A stretch of DNA of 64,000 nucleotides from Sphingobacteriaceae bacterium (GCA_029266635.1 JAQSWM010000002.1:310001-374000); one strand, 5' to 3'; shown: positions 47,066 to 57,299, counted from the stretch's first letter. A program made the numbers and translations. Notes: generated by a model from the sequence alone, not told the origin.

Positions 47066-48934
47066 ATGGCTGAGAGTAATTATAGTGAAGATAGTATCCG
47101 TTCGCTCGACTGGAAAGAGCATATCCGCCTGCGTCCCGGCATGTACATCGGTAAGCTGGGCGATGGTTCTGCTTACGACGATGGCGTATATGTATTGCTG
47201 AAGGAGATTATTGATAACTCTATTGATGAGTTTGTGATGGGGGCAGGCAAAACGATCGAGATCACGATGAGCGATCATAAGGTCTCCGTGCGGGATTATG
47301 GCCGGGGCATCCCTTTGGGGAAAGTGATCGACTGCGTTTCAAAAATAAATACAGGCGGTAAGTACGATAGCAAAGCCTTCCAGAAATCTGTGGGTTTGAA
47401 TGGTGTGGGTACTAAGGCTGTAAATGCATTGTCAACGAATTTTATCGTGCAATCCTACCGGGATGGCAAGACGAAAGTTGCAGAATTTGAACGAGGGGAA
47501 CTCATCCGCGATGAAAAGGAGAAGGATACCACGCAGAGAAATGGAACATCCATTCAGTTTTATCCTGACGACTCGATCTTTCGCCACTACCGCTTCATTC
47601 CCGAGTTTGTAGAAAACATGATCTGGAATTATGTCTTTCTTAATTCCGGATTGACCATTAACTTCAACGGGCAGAAATATCACTCAGAACGTGGTTTGTA
47701 TGACTTGCTCACCCGCAATACCGACACTGAAACCAGCCGCTATCCAATCATCCACCTAAAGGGCGAAGACATTGAGATAGCCATGACGCACGGCCAGCAA
47801 TATGGCGAAGAATACTATTCGTTCGTAAATGGCCAACACACCACGCAAGGCGGAACACACCAGGCAGCCTTCCGCGAAGCTGTGGTAAAAACCATTCGGG
47901 AATTTTACAAAAAAGAATACGATGCGGCGGACATTCGGGCATCCATTGTAGCTGCTATCGCGATTAAAGTGCAGGAGCCGGTTTTTGAATCGCAGACTAA
48001 AACAAAGCTCGGTTCTCAGAATATTGGTCCGGATGGGCCGTCGGTGCGGGGATTTGTCAATGATTTCCTTAAGAAAGCGTTAGACGATCATTTGCACAAA
48101 AATCCCGCTACAGCGGATGCACTTCTCAAAAGGATCATGCAGTCTGAACGTGAGCGGAAGGATATTGCGGGCATCAAAAAACTGGCAAACGAGCGGGCGA
48201 AAAAGGCATCGCTTCACAACAAAAAACTGCGGGATTGCAAGATTCACTTCGGCGATTCGAACGATCGACATCAAGAAACCACCTTGTTCATAACGGAAGG
48301 GGATTCTGCCAGCGGCTCAATTACCAAGTCACGGGACGTAATGACCCAAGCCGTATTCAGCTTGAAGGGAAAGCCACTGAACTGCTACGGACTTACCAAA
48401 AAAGTTGTGTACGAGAACGAGGAATTTAACCTTCTACAACATGCTTTGAATATTGAAGATGGGCTGGAAGGACTGCACTACAACAACATTGTAATCGCTA
48501 CCGATGCCGACGTCGATGGCATGCACATCCGCCTTCTGCTCATGACCTTCTTCCTTCAGTTTTTCCCTGACCTGGTAAAGGCAGGGCACGTTTCAATTTT
48601 GCAAACGCCGCTTTTCCGGGTGCGGAATAAAAAAGAAACCATTTATTGCTACAGTGATGAGGAGCGGCAACGTGCGATAATGAAGCTGGGAAACAAGCCA
48701 GAGATTACAAGATTTAAGGGTTTAGGCGAGATTTCGCCGGAGGAGTTTGGCCTGTTCATCGGGAAAGATATCAGGCTTGACCCCGTAATTGTTTCAAAAG
48801 AGCTTACCATCAAGAGCATGCTGGAATATTATATGGGCAAAAACACTCCCGACAGGCAGCAGCACATTATTGGGAACCTCCGAATTGAAGTGGATATAGT
48901 GGAAGAGGAGCCGATGTTAGCTGAGGTGGAATAG
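47066..48934 (+). CDS. parE: DNA topoisomerase IV subunit B (ParE; GyrB family)
   Basis: A 622-aa ATPase subunit. The GHKL ATP site shows [18 protein letters not shown] and [14 protein letters not shown]. The transducer domain follows, then the TOPRIM metal site with [16 protein letters not shown] and [19 protein letters not shown], and the C-terminal [13 protein letters not shown]. It is shorter than most GyrB proteins, and the subunit A partner at 54534 has a ParC-like variable C-terminus, so topoisomerase IV is preferred over gyrase. It is monocistronic with a short gap to the secreted protein gene downstream. Confidence 0.92.
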
Positions 48935-48988: not shown

Positions 48989-49837
48989 ATGAAAAAACTA
49001 ATCTTTTTAATCGCGTTTTTCGCCTTCGCGTATCTACAGGCGGATGCCCAGCAAGACTCAACCAGGCGCAGAACTCAAGGCGACCAGAATACCTCGGTTA
49101 CTACATCTTCCAGGAAGAATGTACCTGCAAATCAGAGAAACCAGCCCGTGCAAAGCATTTATCGTCCTACAGATCCGGTGAATATGCAAGATCCGCCTGA
49201 CGTGTTGCTTGATGTGCCGAATTTGTCTGTTGATGAGATAACCCTTGATGTTGAAAACCTGACTGCCAACCTTTCTCTGGATGCACGCGTGGCAAACCTC
49301 GTCACTCTTAAAGCAGGTGTAGATGTAGGTGTAGACAAAGTTAAGATCACGATTAAAGGTGTGCAGGCTTCCGCATTATTAATTGTAAGGTTAGATAATG
49401 TTAGGGCGATTCTGGAGAAAACCCTGGAAACGTTAGATAAAAATCCTCAAATAATTGATCAACTTTTAAAGACTGTAGACAATACCGTTAACACAGTTGG
49501 AGGCGTAGCAAACACAGCGCTACAGCCGGGCGGAGTAATAAGCCAAACTGTTAATACACTTGGGCAAACTGTTCAGCGCACTTTAGACACTACCGGCAAC
49601 ATTGTAGAGAAAACTCTAGATTCTACCGGGAAGGTGTTGAACACCAAAACTGTAGGCAAGCTGCTGGACTTGCCCGTTATCAGCCAAACCACCAATGCAG
49701 CGGGTCAGGTTGTGAAACGTGTACGCGACACGACTGGGACTGTTATTGAAGTGGTTACTGATAAGGCTGGAAAGATAGTAAGTCAGAGAGTTGTTAGCCA
49801 CGGCTCTGCCGGCACCAGCTCAACTCCTCAAAGATAA
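48989..49837 (+). CDS. Hypothetical secreted protein with Thr/Val-rich imperfect repeats
   Basis: A 282-aa protein with signal peptide MKKLIFLIAFFAFAYLQADAQ. After a basic, Gln-rich linker (22-65), a conserved-looking middle (LDVPNLSVDEITLDVENLTANLSLDARVANLVTLKAGVDVGVDKVKITIKGV, about 75-125) resembles domains seen in secreted proteins of soil bacteria. From about 150 to 270 there is a chain of short repeats of the kind VNTLGQTVQRTLD, TTGNIVEKTLD, STGKVLN. A fibrous or amphipathic surface is suggested. The family is not named with confidence. A terminator follows. Confidence 0.75.
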   Translation: MKKLIFLIAFFAFAYLQADAQQDSTRRRTQGDQNTSVTTSSRKNVPANQRNQPVQSIYRPTDPVNMQDPPDVLLDVPNLSVDEITLDVENLTANLSLDARVANLVTLKAGVDVGVDKVKITIKGVQASALLIVRLDNVRAILEKTLETLDKNPQIIDQLLKTVDNTVNTVGGVANTALQPGGVISQTVNTLGQTVQRTLDTTGNIVEKTLDSTGKVLNTKTVGKLLDLPVISQTTNAAGQVVKRVRDTTGTVIEVVTDKAGKIVSQRVVSHGSAGTSSTPQR

Positions 49838-49842
49838 AATTG

Positions 49843-49873
49843 AGCAGTGATGCGCCTTCTGTGCATCACTGCT
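49843..49873. terminator. Bidirectional terminator
   Basis: AGCAGTGATGC (49843-49853) and GCATCACTGCT (49863-49873) form a perfect 11-bp stem with a 9-nt loop, followed by TTT. It separates two convergent genes and contains the stop codon of the minus-strand lipoprotein gene. Confidence 0.75.
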
Positions 49874-50285
49874 TTTCATATTCTTTCTTGACTCCTCCAT
49901 CGCTCGCAAAACAGCCTGATGCCAGAAATAACTTGTTGCCTGATATGTGGATGAATGTCTTTTGGGATGAATTATCGCCGTCGTAAATAATCCGGTTCTC
50001 AAATTCACCTTTCTTCTTGACGAGGCAAATGGACATCTCAAATCCGGCATCAGCAACAATCGTATAAGTTCCAGCTTTTGTGACTGCTCCGTTTTTAAGA
50101 ATCTGGTATTCACCTTTTGTGAACTTGATTACATTGCCGTTCCCGGGGGGGTAGGTAATTGTGCCCATGTCGCCTTCCAGCGTTCTTAACTCCCAGGTTC
50201 CCACCAGACTGGATTCAATATCTTCTTTTTTACAGCTGGAAATTAAACTAAAGAGGATTAGAAGGATGATAACAGGAGCTTTCAT
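49866..50285 (-). CDS. Hypothetical lipoprotein with lipocalin-like pattern
   Basis: A 139-aa lipoprotein: MKAPVIILLILFSLISSC gives a clear lipobox (ISSC, Cys18) followed by KKED. The body has the Bacteroidota lipocalin-like pattern LVGTWELRTLEGD, NVIKFTKGEYQILKNG and GTYTI, with two later Cys residues that could pair. It probably sits on a membrane surface. It is on the same strand and 59 nt downstream of the Sco-like gene, so it might be the last member of that sigma-controlled unit, though the link is weak. Confidence 0.75.
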   Translation of the reverse strand: MKAPVIILLILFSLISSCKKEDIESSLVGTWELRTLEGDMGTITYPPGNGNVIKFTKGEYQILKNGAVTKAGTYTIVADAGFEMSICLVKKKGEFENRIIYDGDNSSQKTFIHISGNKLFLASGCFASDGGVKKEYEKQ

Positions 50286-50344
50286 ATATTTTCTTCACAC
50301 TACTACGCTGAGAAGCCGTTTAGTGCTACAAGATACAGAGAAGT

Positions 50345-51013
50345 TTATAGCAGCGCTTCAATATCCTCCACTATTCGCGGGACTTCCGCTTCAAGCGTTC
50401 CGTTATAAATGCCGCGAATATGACCTTTCTGGTCAATTAATACGAAATTTTCCGTGTGCAGAAATTGGGAAGAGGTTTTAGAAAACCCTGTCTCTTCTTC
50501 AATGAAATAGCTCTTTCTCGCTAACTGGTAAATTTCCTCCTTGTTTCCGGTTATAAAATGCCATTGCGGCGACAGCACATGGTTCTTAACGGCATAATTA
50601 TAAAGCTTCGGAACACTGTCAATTTCGGGCGTTACGCTGTGGGAGATGAAAAGTACGTTTGAGTTATTTTTAAAATGTTCCTGAACCAGGCTCATTGTTT
50701 TGGTCAGTCTTGGGCAAATACTGGGACATGAGGTGAAAAAAAAGTTTGCGAGATAAACTTTATCCTTAACAGTTTCTGCAGCAATTTTATGGTTGTACTG
50801 GTCTGTAAAATTAAAAGGTGGAATCCGATGCATTTTATCCAGTGCCGTAGCCCCGGGATTCCATACAGGAGTGAAGGTGGCATCGTTATAATACGGAACC
50901 TCTGCCTTTTTGCGGTCGGCACAGCCACCAACAATCAAAGAAAGGTTAAGGAGTGCTATGAAAGGCAGCATCCCGGAAAACGGAGTAGCAGTTCTTCTTG
51001 CCGATGTTGCCAT
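50345..51013 (-). CDS. Sco-like copper-binding lipoprotein (SCO1/SenC family)
   Basis: A thioredoxin-fold protein of 222 aa that in this family delivers copper to cytochrome oxidase or senses redox. The CuA-type motif is CPSIC in FFTSCPSICPRL, and SHSVTPEIDSV follows. The lipobox-like VGGC ends the signal. ATG 51013 is chosen because GGA lies 10 nt upstream and the leader has Arg-Arg; ATG 51025 or 50971 are possible. The start lies inside the preceding MORN gene, overlapping by 68 nt. It is the last clear member of the ECF operon. Confidence 0.85.
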   Translation of the reverse strand: MATSARRTATPFSGMLPFIALLNLSLIVGGCADRKKAEVPYYNDATFTPVWNPGATALDKMHRIPPFNFTDQYNHKIAAETVKDKVYLANFFFTSCPSICPRLTKTMSLVQEHFKNNSNVLFISHSVTPEIDSVPKLYNYAVKNHVLSPQWHFITGNKEEIYQLARKSYFIEEETGFSKTSSQFLHTENFVLIDQKGHIRGIYNGTLEAEVPRIVEDIEALL

Positions 51014-51548
51014 AATTACGTCCATTTCTTGCCTCATAATTTGACTTGATTTTGCCATTCTCTTCCCATGTTTGCTGCAGCCCGCTTTCCTGTCCGCTTT
51101 TGTAGATCTTTTTGGAAAATAGCCGCCCGTTTGGATACCACTCGTATTGAACACCTTCATACACATCCTTGGCTAAATGATATTTGTATCGCCTGCTTCC
51201 GTTCGGCCAGTAGCCGTAGCTCACGCCATCCTTTTTGCCGTCCTTGTACCATCTCTTTTCCTGTAGCTGCTTATTTGAAAACCAAAGCTTTTGTTGTCCG
51301 TCCTCAGCTCCATCCCGGTAGGATTTGCTGAATATCGTATCTCCGGCTGAGGTAAGCGCATACACTCTCCCGCTGAATGCCTTTGTCCCACTATACATAA
51401 GTCCGTTTTCGGTCCTCAGCTCAAGGCTATCAACATTGATTGCTTTTAAGCTGGTGTCCTGGCGCACATTCCCACATGAAGCCAGACCAGCGGCAGCTAA
51501 TACCAGCAGCTTAATTGCTGACAGTGCCCGGCGTGCCGTAAAAGCCAT
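50946..51548 (-). CDS. MORN-repeat (YwqK-like) lipoprotein
   Basis: A 200-aa protein. The N-terminus (MAFTARRALSAIKLLVLAAAG, then LASC) is a lipoprotein signal. From about 75 to 180 there are four to five MORN-type units of the form Y-x-D/N-G-x-x-x-G-x-x-x-x-W-x-x-N-G (WYKDGKKDGVSYGYWPNG, EGVQYEWYPNGRLFSKKIY). Proteins of this kind are often named YwqK-family antitoxins, but no toxin lies here. Its start overlaps the YHYH gene by 38 nt and its end overlaps the Sco gene by 68 nt. The cell-surface role is unknown. Confidence 0.82.
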   Translation of the reverse strand: MAFTARRALSAIKLLVLAAAGLASCGNVRQDTSLKAINVDSLELRTENGLMYSGTKAFSGRVYALTSAGDTIFSKSYRDGAEDGQQKLWFSNKQLQEKRWYKDGKKDGVSYGYWPNGSRRYKYHLAKDVYEGVQYEWYPNGRLFSKKIYKSGQESGLQQTWEENGKIKSNYEARNGRNYGNIGKKNCYSVFRDAAFHSTP

Positions 51549-52257
51549 TTCCGTTAATGTAAGGATCGGTGGAGGTGATATGATAGTGGTAACTGCCGTT
51601 CGGGTAATCTGCAGTTGCGCTGGTATGTCCGTGATAAGCGTCTAATTGTGCATTCGTTACTGTTGCGCTATTTTCCATCGGGCCATAAACTGGATAACCG
51701 TCCAGCAAAAAGCCAAGTAGCGCTGATTTTCCCTTGTTTGTTGTAAGATAGAAAGGTTCCGCATGGTAATGATATTGCCCCTGCTGTTGCGGATGTCCGT
51801 CGTATTGGTCAAAGCTGACAATCTCGTTGGTTAGAGGCGAGCCGCCTGCAGCGTACTGGTTGAAAAAAGGAACTCCGTTTAGCGAAACGCCGATCGGTCC
51901 CATGGGTGTTGCAGATTTGGTTGCGGCGGGCGATGGATTTAGCGGAATGCGGAATGTGAGGTTTTGCGATACGATTTTACTCGGGTTTTGTGCGAACTGC
52001 CCGGAGCCGTTATACGCCTCGTACATAGAGGCAGCCCACTGTGTGCCCTGGTAATAGGGGCTTTTGTGATCGGGAAGGGCGGTGCTTTTTATAACCACAT
52101 AGTTGCCGTCCTGCGATACGCTTGTGGCGCCGTAAATGCGTTTATAGATGGTTAGATCGGCTGTTGCTACGCTGCTGTCGGACTGATTCTTTTTACAGCT
52201 TACGAAGACGACAAAGGCAAGGGCTCCTGTTACTAATACGTTTAGGAAAAATTTCAT
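51511..52257 (-). CDS. YHYH-domain lipoprotein
   Basis: A 248-aa protein named for its YHYH motifs: QGQYHYHAEP in the middle and NGSYHYHIT near the end, with FLLDGYPVYGPM and DAYHGHTS between. The signal MKFFLNVLVTGALAFVVFVSC is a lipoprotein leader. The dense His/Tyr clusters suggest metal binding, most plausibly copper given the Sco neighbour, but no biochemical role is established to my knowledge. It lies 39 nt after the Spy-like gene and overlaps the MORN gene by 38 nt. Confidence 0.85.
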   Translation of the reverse strand: MKFFLNVLVTGALAFVVFVSCKKNQSDSSVATADLTIYKRIYGATSVSQDGNYVVIKSTALPDHKSPYYQGTQWAASMYEAYNGSGQFAQNPSKIVSQNLTFRIPLNPSPAATKSATPMGPIGVSLNGVPFFNQYAAGGSPLTNEIVSFDQYDGHPQQQGQYHYHAEPFYLTTNKGKSALLGFLLDGYPVYGPMENSATVTNAQLDAYHGHTSATADYPNGSYHYHITSTDPYINGNGFYGTPGTVSN

Positions 52258-52296
52258 AGTTCTAAGGTTAATTTACATGTTAGACGGAACATGAGA

Positions 52297-52758
52297 TTAT
52301 TTCCCCCGCCCGGGCATATCATTTTTTTGCGGGGAGATAACTTGCATCAGTGATGGGATAATTTTTTCAAAACCTTTCTGCTGCTCCGGTGAGCAAATTT
52401 TTTTGATCTCATCAAAGTGCTCGTAAGTAGCATCAACTTTTTGCTTGTATAAACTAGCCAGCACAATTTCAAGAGAATCTTTCTTTGTCTGGTCTCCGCT
52501 GCGGTTTAGTAATCCGAAGTATTCCTCAAAAGGTTGCTTCATCTGTTCGTCAATCTCCGTCATCCTGCCATGATGCTGATCCTTCAGTTTATTAAATGTT
52601 TGTACCTGCTCCTGATTCAGGTTAAGGCTTCTGATGATTTGTTTATCAAATCTTTCCAGCGGCGGCTTAGGCCTTCCCAACACGATAAAAGCCAAACATG
52701 CCACGTTTAGCACAACAAGTGCGATGACACAATATACCAGGATCTTATGTTTGCTCAT
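52297..52758 (-). CDS. Spy/CpxP-like periplasmic protein (heavy-metal sensor type)
   Basis: A 153-aa protein with one N-terminal membrane segment (ILVYCVIALVVLNVACLAFIVLG, 6-28) and an all-helical periplasmic part with the LTxxQ-like LNLNQEQVQTFNKLKDQH and CSPEQQKGFEKIIPSLM motifs typical of Spy/CpxP/CnrX-type proteins. Such proteins act as chaperones or metal-dependent sensors that modulate anti-sigma factors. Its ATG overlaps the anti-sigma stop by 4 nt, so it is coupled to that gene and may be a co-regulator. Confidence 0.82.
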   Translation of the reverse strand: MSKHKILVYCVIALVVLNVACLAFIVLGRPKPPLERFDKQIIRSLNLNQEQVQTFNKLKDQHHGRMTEIDEQMKQPFEEYFGLLNRSGDQTKKDSLEIVLASLYKQKVDATYEHFDEIKKICSPEQQKGFEKIIPSLMQVISPQKNDMPGRGK

Positions 52759-53036
52759 TTGTAAAGGTTTAGATCATACGATTCGATGTAATTGGAGCTA
52801 TCCGTTGGGGCAATGCGCTTAGCGGTCAGCAATATGCCAACATTTAGTAACACCAGGATGCAAGCGGCGGCTAAGGCTATGCGGATCTGGCCTAGGGGAA
52901 GTTTTACAACTTCGTTTTCCCCCTTTTGAACAGATTCCAGTATCCGCGGAAAAAGATGCCCGGGCGCATGCAAGCCCTTAACCTCTTCCGCTGAATCAAG
53001 TACCCGGGCAACCCATTGCTCTCTTTCTTTATCCAT
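52755..53036 (-). CDS. Small membrane protein, putative anti-sigma factor
   Basis: A 93-aa protein from ATG 53036 (MDKEREQWVARVLDSAEEV) with one TM segment at about 60-78 (IRIALAAACILVLLNVGILL) and a short periplasmic tail. The start was chosen because the upstream extension reads through the end of the sigma gene. It lies 16 nt after the ECF sigma gene and overlaps the Spy-like gene by ATGA. Position, size and topology fit an anti-sigma factor, but no zinc-finger motif is seen, so the role is inferred. Confidence 0.75.
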   Translation of the reverse strand: MDKEREQWVARVLDSAEEVKGLHAPGHLFPRILESVQKGENEVVKLPLGQIRIALAAACILVLLNVGILLTAKRIAPTDSSNYIESYDLNLYK

Positions 53037-53052
53037 GTTTTTCTTTAGACGT

Positions 53053-53643
53053 TTAAATTGTGTGTTTCCCCCGCTGATTGTAAATAGCAACCAGAGTTTT
53101 TCTAAGATTTTCTTTCCCCCGCTGGATGAGCCCTTCAACTGCCTTTTCCGTTACTCCGATGATTTCCGCAGCCTGCCGCCCTTTCAAGCCTTCAAGTTGA
53201 GTTAAGATAAGGGCGGTTTTTTGGTTTGCGACAAGCCTTTCCATCGCCGAAAGCAACATTGCTAAGTCTTCCTTCTTGTCTGCGTTTGTTCCGTGATCGG
53301 ATGTATCCGCTATAGAATCTTCCAGTGGTAAGCTGCTGCCGACGGAAAAAATCGAAGAAATAAAACCGAAGCGTTTCCTTGCTTTGAGATACCTGAGCTT
53401 GTCGAGTGATTTGTTTACAGCAATCCTGTAAACCCAGGTGCTAACTGAAGATTTCCCGTTAAATGTCTTTGCCGACCGGTGGATTTCGACAAAAACATCT
53501 TGCGTTAGCTCCTCAGCTTCCTGCTCATTTTGCAAGTAGCTGTAAGCAATGCGATAAACCAGGTCCTTAAAAACTTCATAGAACTCCGAGAAGGCTACTT
53601 CGTCAGCTGATGCAATTCTTTGTAAGAGCTCTGTATGGTTCAA
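53053..53643 (-). CDS. ECF RNA polymerase sigma factor
   Basis: A 196-aa sigma factor with TTG start. Region 2 is at about 15-85 (FSEFYEVFKDLVYRIAYSYLQNEQEAEELTQDVFVEIHRS, STWVYRIAVNKSLDKLR). Region 4 is at about 130-185 (LTQLEGLKGRQAAEIIGVTEKAVEGLIQRGKENLR). It heads a minus-strand unit of up to six genes (anti-sigma-like, Spy-like, YHYH, MORN, Sco). The gene content suggests a response to copper or envelope stress (inference). A weak -7-like TATATTTT lies upstream. Confidence 0.93.
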   Translation of the reverse strand: MNHTELLQRIASADEVAFSEFYEVFKDLVYRIAYSYLQNEQEAEELTQDVFVEIHRSAKTFNGKSSVSTWVYRIAVNKSLDKLRYLKARKRFGFISSIFSVGSSLPLEDSIADTSDHGTNADKKEDLAMLLSAMERLVANQKTALILTQLEGLKGRQAAEIIGVTEKAVEGLIQRGKENLRKTLVAIYNQRGKHTI

Positions 53644-54533: not shown

Positions 54534-57299
54534 ATGGGCGAAGAAACAAATCACGAAGACAACCATTTACCCGAGCAGGGGGAAGAGAAATTACATAACG
54601 TTATACCAATCGGCGGACTGTACGAGAACTGGTTCCTGGATTACGCATCGTATGTAATCCTGGACCGGGCTGTCCCGCATATCCACGACGGGCTTAAACC
54701 CGTTCAGCGAAGAATTCTGCATTCGCTGAAGGAGATGGACGATGGCCGCTTCAACAAAGCCGCCAACGTGATTGGTAATACCATGAAGTATCACCCGCAT
54801 GGGGATGCCTCGATCGGCGATGCCATGGTGCAGATTGGGCAGAAGAACCTACTCATTGATTGCCAGGGAAACTGGGGCGATCCCGTCACTGGCGACTCAG
54901 CCGCAGCTCCGCGTTACATTGAGGCCCGGCTATCTAAGTTTGCTCTTGATGTAGTTTTTAATCCGGATACCACCGAATGGTCTTTGAGCTACGATGGCAG
55001 GAACCGCGAGCCTGTCACGCTCCCTGTTAAATTCCCGCTATTGCTGGCCCAGGGTGCCGAGGGGATTGCCGTAGGTTTAGCCACCAAGGTAATGCCACAC
55101 AATTTTGTGGAATTGCTTGACGCTTCCATAGAGGTGCTGAACGGCAATGTGCCGAATCTTGTTCCGGACTTTCCAACCGCAGGTCTTGCGGATTGCTCTA
55201 ATTACAACGCTGGCCAACGCGGGGGTAAAGTTCGTGTTCGGGCGAGGATTGTGGAGCGGGACAAGAAAACACTTGCCATAACGGAAATCCCATTCTCAAC
55301 TACAACAGGAAGCTTGATCGACAGTGTGATTGCCGCGAATGATAAAGGCAAGATCAAGATCAAGAAGATTGAAGACAATACAGCGAAGGACGTAGAAGTT
55401 ATCATCCATCTTGCGCCTGGCATTTCGCCCGATGTTACGATTGATGCGCTTTACGCTTTTACCGACTGCGAAGTCTCTATCTCGCCGAACACCTGTGTGA
55501 TCCGTGCCGACAAGCCGCATTTCATGAGTGTGAATGATATTCTCACGGAAAGCACGCTGTATACCAAAGATCTGCTGAAGCAGGAGCTGGAAATCAGGCT
55601 GAATGAGCTGAAGGAAAAAATATTCTTCAGCAGCTTGCTTAAGATCTTCATTCAGGAAGGTATGTATAAAAGCGGCGAGTACGAAAATGCCGGCAACTTC
55701 GAGGCTGTTGTAGAGGTACTGAATACGCTTTTTGCACCTTTCTTTTCACAGTTCTACCGCGAGATACTTCCCGAAGATTATAAACGGCTTATCGAAAAGC
55801 CGATGAGCAGCATCACCCGCTTTGACGTTAAAAAAGCGGATGAGCAAATGAAGACGCTAGAAGCAGAGATCAAGGAAGTTAAACATCACCTTAAACATCT
55901 AAATGATTACGCAATTGCCTGGTTCGAGAAGATAAAGGCTAAGTACGGCAAAGGCAGAGAACGCAAAACTGAGCTCCGCACATTTGACAGGGTAGAGGCT
56001 GCGCAAGTGGCTTTGGCGAATGTAAAACTGTACGTTAACAAAGCGGATGGCTTTATCGGCTCAGGCCTTAAGAAGGACGAGTTTGTGTGCGATTGTTCTG
56101 ACCTTGATGAGATAATCGTCTTCCGCGAAGATGGAAGGTGCCTGGTCACCAAGGTTCAAGACAAGGTGTTTGTAGGCAAAGATATTCTCCACGTCGCTGT
56201 CTTTAAAAAGAATGACGAGCGGACGGTCTACAACATGATCTACAAAGATGGCGAGAGCGGAAACTCCTACATCAAACGGTTCTCGGTTCTGGGCGTTACC
56301 CGCGATAAGGAATACGATCTCACCAAAGGTGGAAAAGGCTCTAGAGTGCTCTATTTTACTGCAAATCCGAATGGAGAAGCTGAGATTGTAAATGTGCAGT
56401 TGAAACCACATTCCAAGCTCAAGAAGCTGCAGTTCGACTTGAACTTCGCAGATATCGCTATTAAAGGCCGCAGTTCGATGGGGAATACCGTCACCAAATA
56501 TCCCGTCAAGAAAATAGTGCTTAAGTCTAAAGGTGTTTCTACCCTTGCCGGAAGAAAGATTTGGTACGACGATGTTTTGAAGCGCCTGAATGTTGATGGC
56601 CGCGGCAAGTTCTTAGGTGCTTTTGACGGTGAGGACAAGATATTGACAGTGATGAGCAACGGCATCAGCGAACTGGTGAGTTTTGATCTGAGCAATCATT
56701 TCGATGATAAGATGATCCTGATCGAGAAGTACGATCCCGAAAAGGTGTACAGCGTTGTTCATTACGAAGGCAAAGCAAAGAACTATTTTATTAAACGCTT
56801 CAAATTTGAAAATACCGCCATCGGCAAACAAGCGAGTATTATCAGCGATGAGCCGGGCTCCAAGCTTGTGCTGATTTCAGGCGCATCGCAGCCGGTTGTT
56901 AAGGTTGATCAGTTGAAGGGCAAAACGCTTGTCCCGGAAACGGTAGAAATCAATCTTGCTGATGCTATCGATGTGAAAGGCATGCGGGCGCAGGGCAATC
57001 GTTTGTCGCAATTCGAAATTCAAACTGTGGAGCTTTTAACAGAACACGATGATGCTGCAGATGTGCCTGATCCGGTAGCGGAGGTGCCTTTGGAAGAGGT
57101 TGTAAAGGAGGAAAAGGAAGAGATTGAAGCTGAACAGGAGATCTCGGCTGAGCCCGAATTACAGGAACTTGCCGAAACAGCCACGGAGCCTGAGCCTGAG
57201 CCAGAACCAGAAGCGAAGCCTGCGAAGAAGATCGAGTTTGAAATCACCAATCCGAACGATGTGGAGATTGATGATAAAGGACAGCTGGGACTGTTTTAA
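54534..57299 (+). CDS. parC: DNA topoisomerase IV subunit A (ParC; GyrA family)
   Basis: A 921-aa DNA cleavage/religation subunit. The winged-helix/tower core shows DRAVPHIHDGLKPVQRRILHS, KYHPHGDASIGDAMV and the catalytic Tyr128 in AAPRYIEARLSKFA. A coiled-coil tower follows at about 370-460, then the C-terminal beta-pinwheel (about 500-830). It ends in an acidic Pro/Glu tail (about 850-905) and a conserved-looking KKIEFEITNPND, with GQLGLF at the end. A clear GyrA-box was not seen, which favours ParC. parE lies 5.6 kb upstream with unrelated genes between. Confidence 0.93.
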   Translation: MGEETNHEDNHLPEQGEEKLHNVIPIGGLYENWFLDYASYVILDRAVPHIHDGLKPVQRRILHSLKEMDDGRFNKAANVIGNTMKYHPHGDASIGDAMVQIGQKNLLIDCQGNWGDPVTGDSAAAPRYIEARLSKFALDVVFNPDTTEWSLSYDGRNREPVTLPVKFPLLLAQGAEGIAVGLATKVMPHNFVELLDASIEVLNGNVPNLVPDFPTAGLADCSNYNAGQRGGKVRVRARIVERDKKTLAITEIPFSTTTGSLIDSVIAANDKGKIKIKKIEDNTAKDVEVIIHLAPGISPDVTIDALYAFTDCEVSISPNTCVIRADKPHFMSVNDILTESTLYTKDLLKQELEIRLNELKEKIFFSSLLKIFIQEGMYKSGEYENAGNFEAVVEVLNTLFAPFFSQFYREILPEDYKRLIEKPMSSITRFDVKKADEQMKTLEAEIKEVKHHLKHLNDYAIAWFEKIKAKYGKGRERKTELRTFDRVEAAQVALANVKLYVNKADGFIGSGLKKDEFVCDCSDLDEIIVFREDGRCLVTKVQDKVFVGKDILHVAVFKKNDERTVYNMIYKDGESGNSYIKRFSVLGVTRDKEYDLTKGGKGSRVLYFTANPNGEAEIVNVQLKPHSKLKKLQFDLNFADIAIKGRSSMGNTVTKYPVKKIVLKSKGVSTLAGRKIWYDDVLKRLNVDGRGKFLGAFDGEDKILTVMSNGISELVSFDLSNHFDDKMILIEKYDPEKVYSVVHYEGKAKNYFIKRFKFENTAIGKQASIISDEPGSKLVLISGASQPVVKVDQLKGKTLVPETVEINLADAIDVKGMRAQGNRLSQFEIQTVELLTEHDDAADVPDPVAEVPLEEVVKEEKEEIEAEQEISAEPELQELAETATEPEPEPEPEAKPAKKIEFEITNPNDVEIDDKGQLGLF

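Follow-up and report, generated by a model that had tools for sequence, protein, structure and literature searches.

The stretch of DNA analysed here, called the window throughout, comprises 64,000 nt from a Sphingobacteriaceae bacterium (GCA_029266635.1 JAQSWM010000002.1:310001-374000) whose genome spans 3.6 Mb on 18 contigs. Positions are those of the whole stretch unless a locus number is given. On its minus strand, from 53643 to 50345, six genes follow one another, encoding an extracytoplasmic function (ECF) sigma factor, a one-helix anti-sigma-like protein, a membrane-anchored Spy-like protein, a YHYH lipoprotein, a MORN-repeat lipoprotein and a Sco protein (Table 1). The genes are tightly packed: the anti-sigma and Spy genes share an ATGA overlap, YHYH and MORN overlap by 38 nt, and MORN and SCO overlap or almost do so. 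A preliminary description of this sequence had presented the same six genes, in this order and on this strand, as a single closely packed operon. All six were recovered as described, although a promoter motif that occurs twice within the unit splits it. The start given there, 49866, comes from an open reading frame (ORF 49866-50285) outside the conserved six-gene set. This ORF, encoding a small lipocalin-like lipoprotein, was rejected as a member, as it is not conserved beside the cassette; the one copy found besides the window's lies about 4 kb past the cassette in the nearest relative. The closest named relative, judged by YHYH, is a Sphingobacteriaceae metagenome-assembled genome (MAG). The sigma gene starts with TTG, a start codon that its counterparts in many distant relatives also use and that perhaps keeps the sigma level low.

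A search seeded with the YHYH protein returned 80 loci from Sphingobacteriaceae, Spirosomaceae/Cytophagaceae, Flavobacteriaceae, Chryseobacterium, Chitinophagaceae, Saprospiraceae and Crocinitomix, as well as from MAGs labelled Ignavibacteria and Gemmatimonadales. In 78 of these loci, YHYH has MORN and SCO genes as same-strand neighbours, an adjacency far beyond chance. The reverse test, with the MORN family as seed and an even draw of 395 Bacteroidota genomes, gave matches in 19 genomes; outside the window, YHYH lay beside 21/21 matches and SCO beside 19 of the 21. Among 151 genomes of the family, a MORN orthologue (E < 1e-40, widely separated from paralogues at 5e-24) was present in 17, all 17 of which also contain YHYH. 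The cassette is phylum-wide. The copper-system proposal of the preliminary description, which would have been refuted by the lack of a conserved neighbourhood outside close strains, thus withstood this check. The sigma module is linked to the cassette in 41/80 loci, and its placement varies between upstream, divergent (L041) and downstream (L105, L117), which indicates that the association exceeds mere inherited order. No further neighbour was present in more than 8 of the 80 loci. Searches of mainly open-access literature on YHYH with SCO, on CnrX in Bacteroidetes and on ECF factors with copper and SCO returned no mention of the cassette.

All three cassette proteins carry a conserved lipobox cysteine. 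The YHYH protein matches PF14240 at 87.8 bits (gathering score 25), and eight of its histidines (64, 155, 163, 165, 209, 211, 224 and 226) are nearly invariant, with conservation of 0.96-1.00. Its AlphaFold2 (AF2) model is confident (pLDDT 91.5); neither Foldseek nor VIA-align matched it to the Protein Data Bank (PDB), a mismatch that is no proof of a new fold, and no function can therefore be deduced from the fold. In the MORN protein, the C-terminal Cys187 (conserved at 0.99) lies within an NGRxYGxxGxKxC stretch, and matches to paralogues mostly stop short of it. The SCO protein keeps a CxxxC motif (C104, C108) and a distal His194, conserved at 0.98 across 94 sequences. It shares these features and its lipoprotein nature with the SCO1/SenC chaperones, its closest solved relative being Bacillus YpmQ/Sco1; unlike them, it is tied to YHYH and MORN genes and not to cytochrome oxidase genes. 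Neither YHYH nor these MORN lipoproteins have an assigned function, and the only prediction found for YHYH concerns phage tails. YHYH domains were also seen on viral contigs (L158-L178), within proteins that reach some 2,200 residues in length, where LDxxNGR replaces the HGH motif of the bacterial forms. MORN_2 proteins commonly bear the database name YwqK-type antitoxin. A toxin-antitoxin role was rejected: MORN is accompanied by YHYH and SCO in 78/80 loci and has no toxin-like partner.

Relatives of the anti-sigma-like protein (93 aa, one hydrophobic helix) occupy the same position in 47 loci, and Asn65, within the transmembrane helix, is invariant in 48 sequences; searches returned no Pfam match and no PDB sequence match. 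The Spy-like protein is anchored by an N-terminal membrane helix (residues 3-27) in which Asn18 is conserved at 0.96, and its His62 and His114 are nearly invariant. Both asparagines lie in an LxxLN context, and these matching polar residues suggest a direct contact between the two helices. The family profile of the Spy-like protein, run against the PDB, retrieved NccX first (1.5e-5, with the membrane anchor included in the alignment); Spy and CnrX followed. For its AF2 model (pLDDT 90.7), the best 13 PDB matches were CnrX, with TM-scores of 0.72-0.80 by target length and Foldseek E-values that are modest (0.009-0.04) at a probability of 1.00; NccX/ZraP/CpxP came after these. The Spy-like protein thus has the CnrX fold, which makes the regulator CnrYXH-like and agrees with the metal-sensing part proposed in the preliminary description.

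Like the nickel/cobalt systems CnrYXH and NccYXH of Cupriavidus metallidurans, the window unit combines an adjacent sigma factor, a short anti-sigma with one transmembrane helix and a membrane-anchored CnrX-fold sensor, for which CnrX is the best structural match. It differs in belonging to another phylum, in its gene order (sigma-anti-sensor) and in keeping few of the CnrX metal ligands. It also differs in its targets: CnrYXH is coupled to the efflux pump CnrCBA, whereas here the motif precedes only regulator and cassette genes and genes for secreted redox enzymes. The regulator would work like CnrYXH, but neither its ligands nor its targets allow it to be classed as a member. In Bacteroidota, a class I anti-sigma is found nearby for only 6% of ECF sigmas (PMC7406223).

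The promoter motif, with the consensus RGGA/AGTTTT...CRTCTAA, connects regulator and cassette. In Emticicia relatives, CGCAAGTTTT-N12-CATCTAA was spotted by eye in the sigma upstream regions. A first strict form, derived from sigma upstream regions, occurs upstream of YHYH in 16/41 loci with a sigma module and in 0/39 without one. A generalised form, (GGA/AGT/AGG/AGA)-N14-16-CRTCTAW, was found there in 27/41 and 4/39 loci, respectively (Fisher 2e-7); it was drawn up after viewing the YHYH upstream regions, the window's included, so that this count is partly post hoc, and p-values serve as guides only, loci of one clade not being independent. Two of the four motif-bearing loci without the module are cut contigs. 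The generalised form also lies upstream of sigma in 14/40 loci and of anti-sigma in 15/40, never of both in one locus, and upstream of Spy, MORN or SCO in none; shuffled controls gave 0.1-0.2. The window genome contains two perfect copies, upstream of the anti-sigma and YHYH genes, every other place having at least three mismatches. The anti-sigma site was found blind by a genome scan, and no motif lies upstream of the window's own sigma gene.

Pattern scans of whole genomes of relatives extended this picture. They yielded 18 matches in 10 genomes (1 with the reversed pattern), 26 matches in 23 genomes in a further scan (2 in the control) and 36 matches in 18 genomes with a shorter pattern (8 in the control). 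Most matches are the cassette itself, and several additional ones within genes look like chance. Intergenic matches precede the genes listed in Table 1; the presence of the same promoter over genes for multicopper oxidase with MORN, MauG, haem peroxidase or PAP2/haloperoxidase-like proteins indicates a regulon of secreted oxidative enzymes. In 3/3 multicopper oxidase loci, the gene directly after the oxidase encodes a MORN lipoprotein that shares the C-terminal Cys motif of the cassette type; the order in L242 is SCO-MCO-MORN. Here the multicopper oxidase takes the place of YHYH beside MORN. Relative to the first of these MORN proteins, identity is 59-64%; relative to YHYH-linked MORN proteins it is about 30%, which looks more like an old pairing than a recent copy. 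One promoter and one MORN type, joined once by SCO, thus go with YHYH in some loci and with a multicopper oxidase in others, which is the strongest evidence for YHYH as a comparable metalloenzyme (copper, redox). Neither the cassette nor the genes under the motif include an efflux pump or P-type ATPase, and no P-type ATPase or resistance-nodulation-division (RND) pump recurs among the neighbours in the 80 loci.

With moderate confidence, we interpret the unit as a CnrYXH-type ECF metal switch controlling a dedicated secreted YHYH metalloenzyme cassette, with SCO and MORN as its maturation pair. At rest, the small membrane anti-sigma would hold the sigma factor. The CnrX-fold sensor, putatively anchored beside it (a matching Leu-x-x-Leu-Asn motif is present in both transmembrane helices), would bind a metal ion, most likely copper, via the conserved His62/His114 pair, and in its metal-bound state would loosen the anti-sigma. 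The freed sigma factor would then recognise the RGGA/AGTTTT...CRTCTAA promoter and produce more of its own regulators together with YHYH-MORN-SCO. Through its CxxxC motif and His, SCO may deliver copper and/or reduce thiols. The MORN lipoprotein, which bears a C-terminal Cys, may act as its scaffold or partner, and the metalloenzyme being matured would be the His-rich YHYH lipoprotein. More tentatively, the bacterial YHYH lipoprotein may belong to a hitherto unrecognised class of secreted copper enzymes. Its fold is unmatched in the PDB; it would have a poly-histidine site built from two YHYH motifs and HGH, be functionally interchangeable with multicopper oxidases, be matured by SCO and MORN(Cys), and be controlled by a CnrX-type switch. 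For YHYH and MORN lipoproteins, the cassette suggests a role that can be tested, next to a copper chaperone. Bacteroidota would employ a sensor type of nickel/cobalt resistance in Cupriavidus to control secreted oxidative enzymes, and with the promoter motif, sequence alone suffices to predict the regulon.

Several points weigh against this interpretation. No sigma module is linked to 37/80 cassettes, which implies that the switch is optional or unlinked in those loci, and 2/3 multicopper oxidase loci have no adjacent SCO. The anti-sigma has no CnrY similarity detectable by sequence search of the PDB. Of the CnrX metal ligands (His42, His46, Glu63, His119 and Met123), the family retains a single one, His119, in the form of His114, and has a His62 of its own. 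Copper is the metal that we infer as both signal and cofactor. Moreover, phage YHYH domains have been predicted to be Zn-dependent hydrolases (PMC7824862). If this held for the cassette protein, YHYH would be a Zn-dependent hydrolase, SCO a thiol-disulfide reductase and not a copper chaperone, and the whole system an envelope-remodelling or stress response. Both the Zn site and the hydrolase activity predicted for the phage domains (PMC7824862) and the sulfatases that adjoin several cassettes fit such a system, yet it appears rather unlikely: the phage domains have no HGH motif and often miss one of the two YHYH motifs kept in bacterial forms, and the promoter and MORN type accompany multicopper oxidases and peroxidases, which indicates redox chemistry. 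Cassette and phage tail proteins belong to the same Pfam family (PF14240, PMC7824862), but the former are lipoproteins with eight conserved His, whereas the latter are parts of tail proteins in which several of these are missing.

Copper (or silver) resistance offers another explanation, in which YHYH would sequester or oxidise excess envelope copper like CueO/CopA, with the sigma factor as copper-stress regulator. The CnrX-type sensor and the multicopper oxidases of the regulon are consistent with it, as is the regulation of a multicopper oxidase by CorE of Myxococcus xanthus, a copper-dependent ECF sigma (PMC3107203). We consider this explanation unlikely, since neither a P-type ATPase nor an RND pump was found among the motif-bearing genes or the conserved neighbours, and haem and PAP2/haloperoxidase-type enzymes also belong to the regulon. 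The likeness to CorE consists in an ECF sigma controlling a multicopper oxidase. CorE, however, senses copper by its own Cys-rich C-terminal domain, has no linked anti-sigma and also controls P1B ATPases; the window sigma contains no cysteines, and so no such domain, works with a separate anti-sigma and CnrX-fold sensor, and has no such ATPases among its targets. The preliminary description had suggested envelope copper handling or copper stress. Handling gains indirect support from the conserved Sco CxxxC and His and from the multicopper oxidases that share the promoter and the MORN partner. Stress, in the sense of detoxification, is less well supported: secreted redox enzymes stand in place of an efflux pump or P-type ATPase. 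Lastly, Sco family membership would fit a role in assembling the CuA site of cytochrome c oxidase, with YHYH and MORN assisting. This is very improbable, as the window genome has several other Sco genes, one of them about 6 kb from its only COX2 gene on another contig, and cox genes are not conserved neighbours in the 80 loci.

Table 1. Features of the window and of related loci (window positions, or positions within the numbered locus).
Feature	Location	Strand	Basis or remark
ECF sigma factor (CnrH-like role)	53053..53643	-	Pfam Sigma70_r2 1e-18, r4_2 5e-10; TTG start
Anti-sigma-like protein, 93 aa, one transmembrane helix (CnrY-like role)	52755..53036	-	Position, transmembrane helix
Membrane-anchored Spy/CnrX-fold periplasmic sensor (LTXXQ)	52297..52758	-	PF07813 1e-6; predicted fold
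YHYH lipoprotein	51511..52257	-	PF14240 1e-24; lipobox Cys21
MORN_2 (MORN-repeat) lipoprotein	50946..51548	-	Pfam; C-terminal Cys187
SCO1/SenC lipoprotein	about 50345..51037	-	Pfam 1e-23; start candidates 51037, 51025 or 51013
Promoter motif copy 1, upstream of anti-sigma gene	53045..53074	-	GCGGGGGAAA-N13-CGTCTAA; genome scan
Promoter motif copy 2, upstream of YHYH gene	52280..52309	-	GCGGGGGAAA-N13-CGTCTAA
Topoisomerase IV-like parE	47066-48934	+	Named from sequence
Topoisomerase IV-like parC	54534-57299	+	Named from sequence
Secreted 282-aa protein	48989-49837		Repeated segments
Intergenic motif before multicopper oxidase	L238, L242, L245
Intergenic motif before CCP_MauG-type peroxidase	L239, L240, L244; L109		L109 cassette-linked
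Intergenic motif before animal-type haem peroxidase (An_peroxidase)	L241
Intergenic motif before PAP2/haloperoxidase-like protein	L236
Intergenic motif before further YHYH genes	L223, L229
Intergenic motif before PepSY-like lipoprotein	L044, L084		Below Pfam cut-off
Intergenic motif before repeat protein	L226
Intergenic motif before cytochrome c	L235
Sulfatase neighbours	L095 4543-5868; L238 1739-3058; L289 5389-6759
Sulfatase neighbours	L276, L281 about 2.4-3.8 kb		Read from MORN strand
CotH-like-looking lipoprotein and EF-hand-like protein	L278 2159-4200; L286 2009-3956		Precede YHYH
Second, longer YHYH protein	L071 6326-8246; L083 8571-9557		Directly downstream of cassette

Some neighbouring genes were recorded in addition. 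In the window, topoisomerase IV-like parE and parC genes, both on the opposite strand, flank the six-gene unit, and the secreted 282-aa protein encoded near parE has repeated TLDTTGNIVEKTLDSTGKV-like segments. Cys-type sulfatase lipoproteins adjoin the YHYH cassette or a multicopper oxidase in several genomes and are possibly a further client or partner of the system. In two loci, YHYH is preceded by a large lipoprotein of CotH-like appearance together with an EF-hand-like protein. In two others, a second, longer YHYH protein is encoded directly downstream of the cassette, followed in L071 by a PEBP-like protein.

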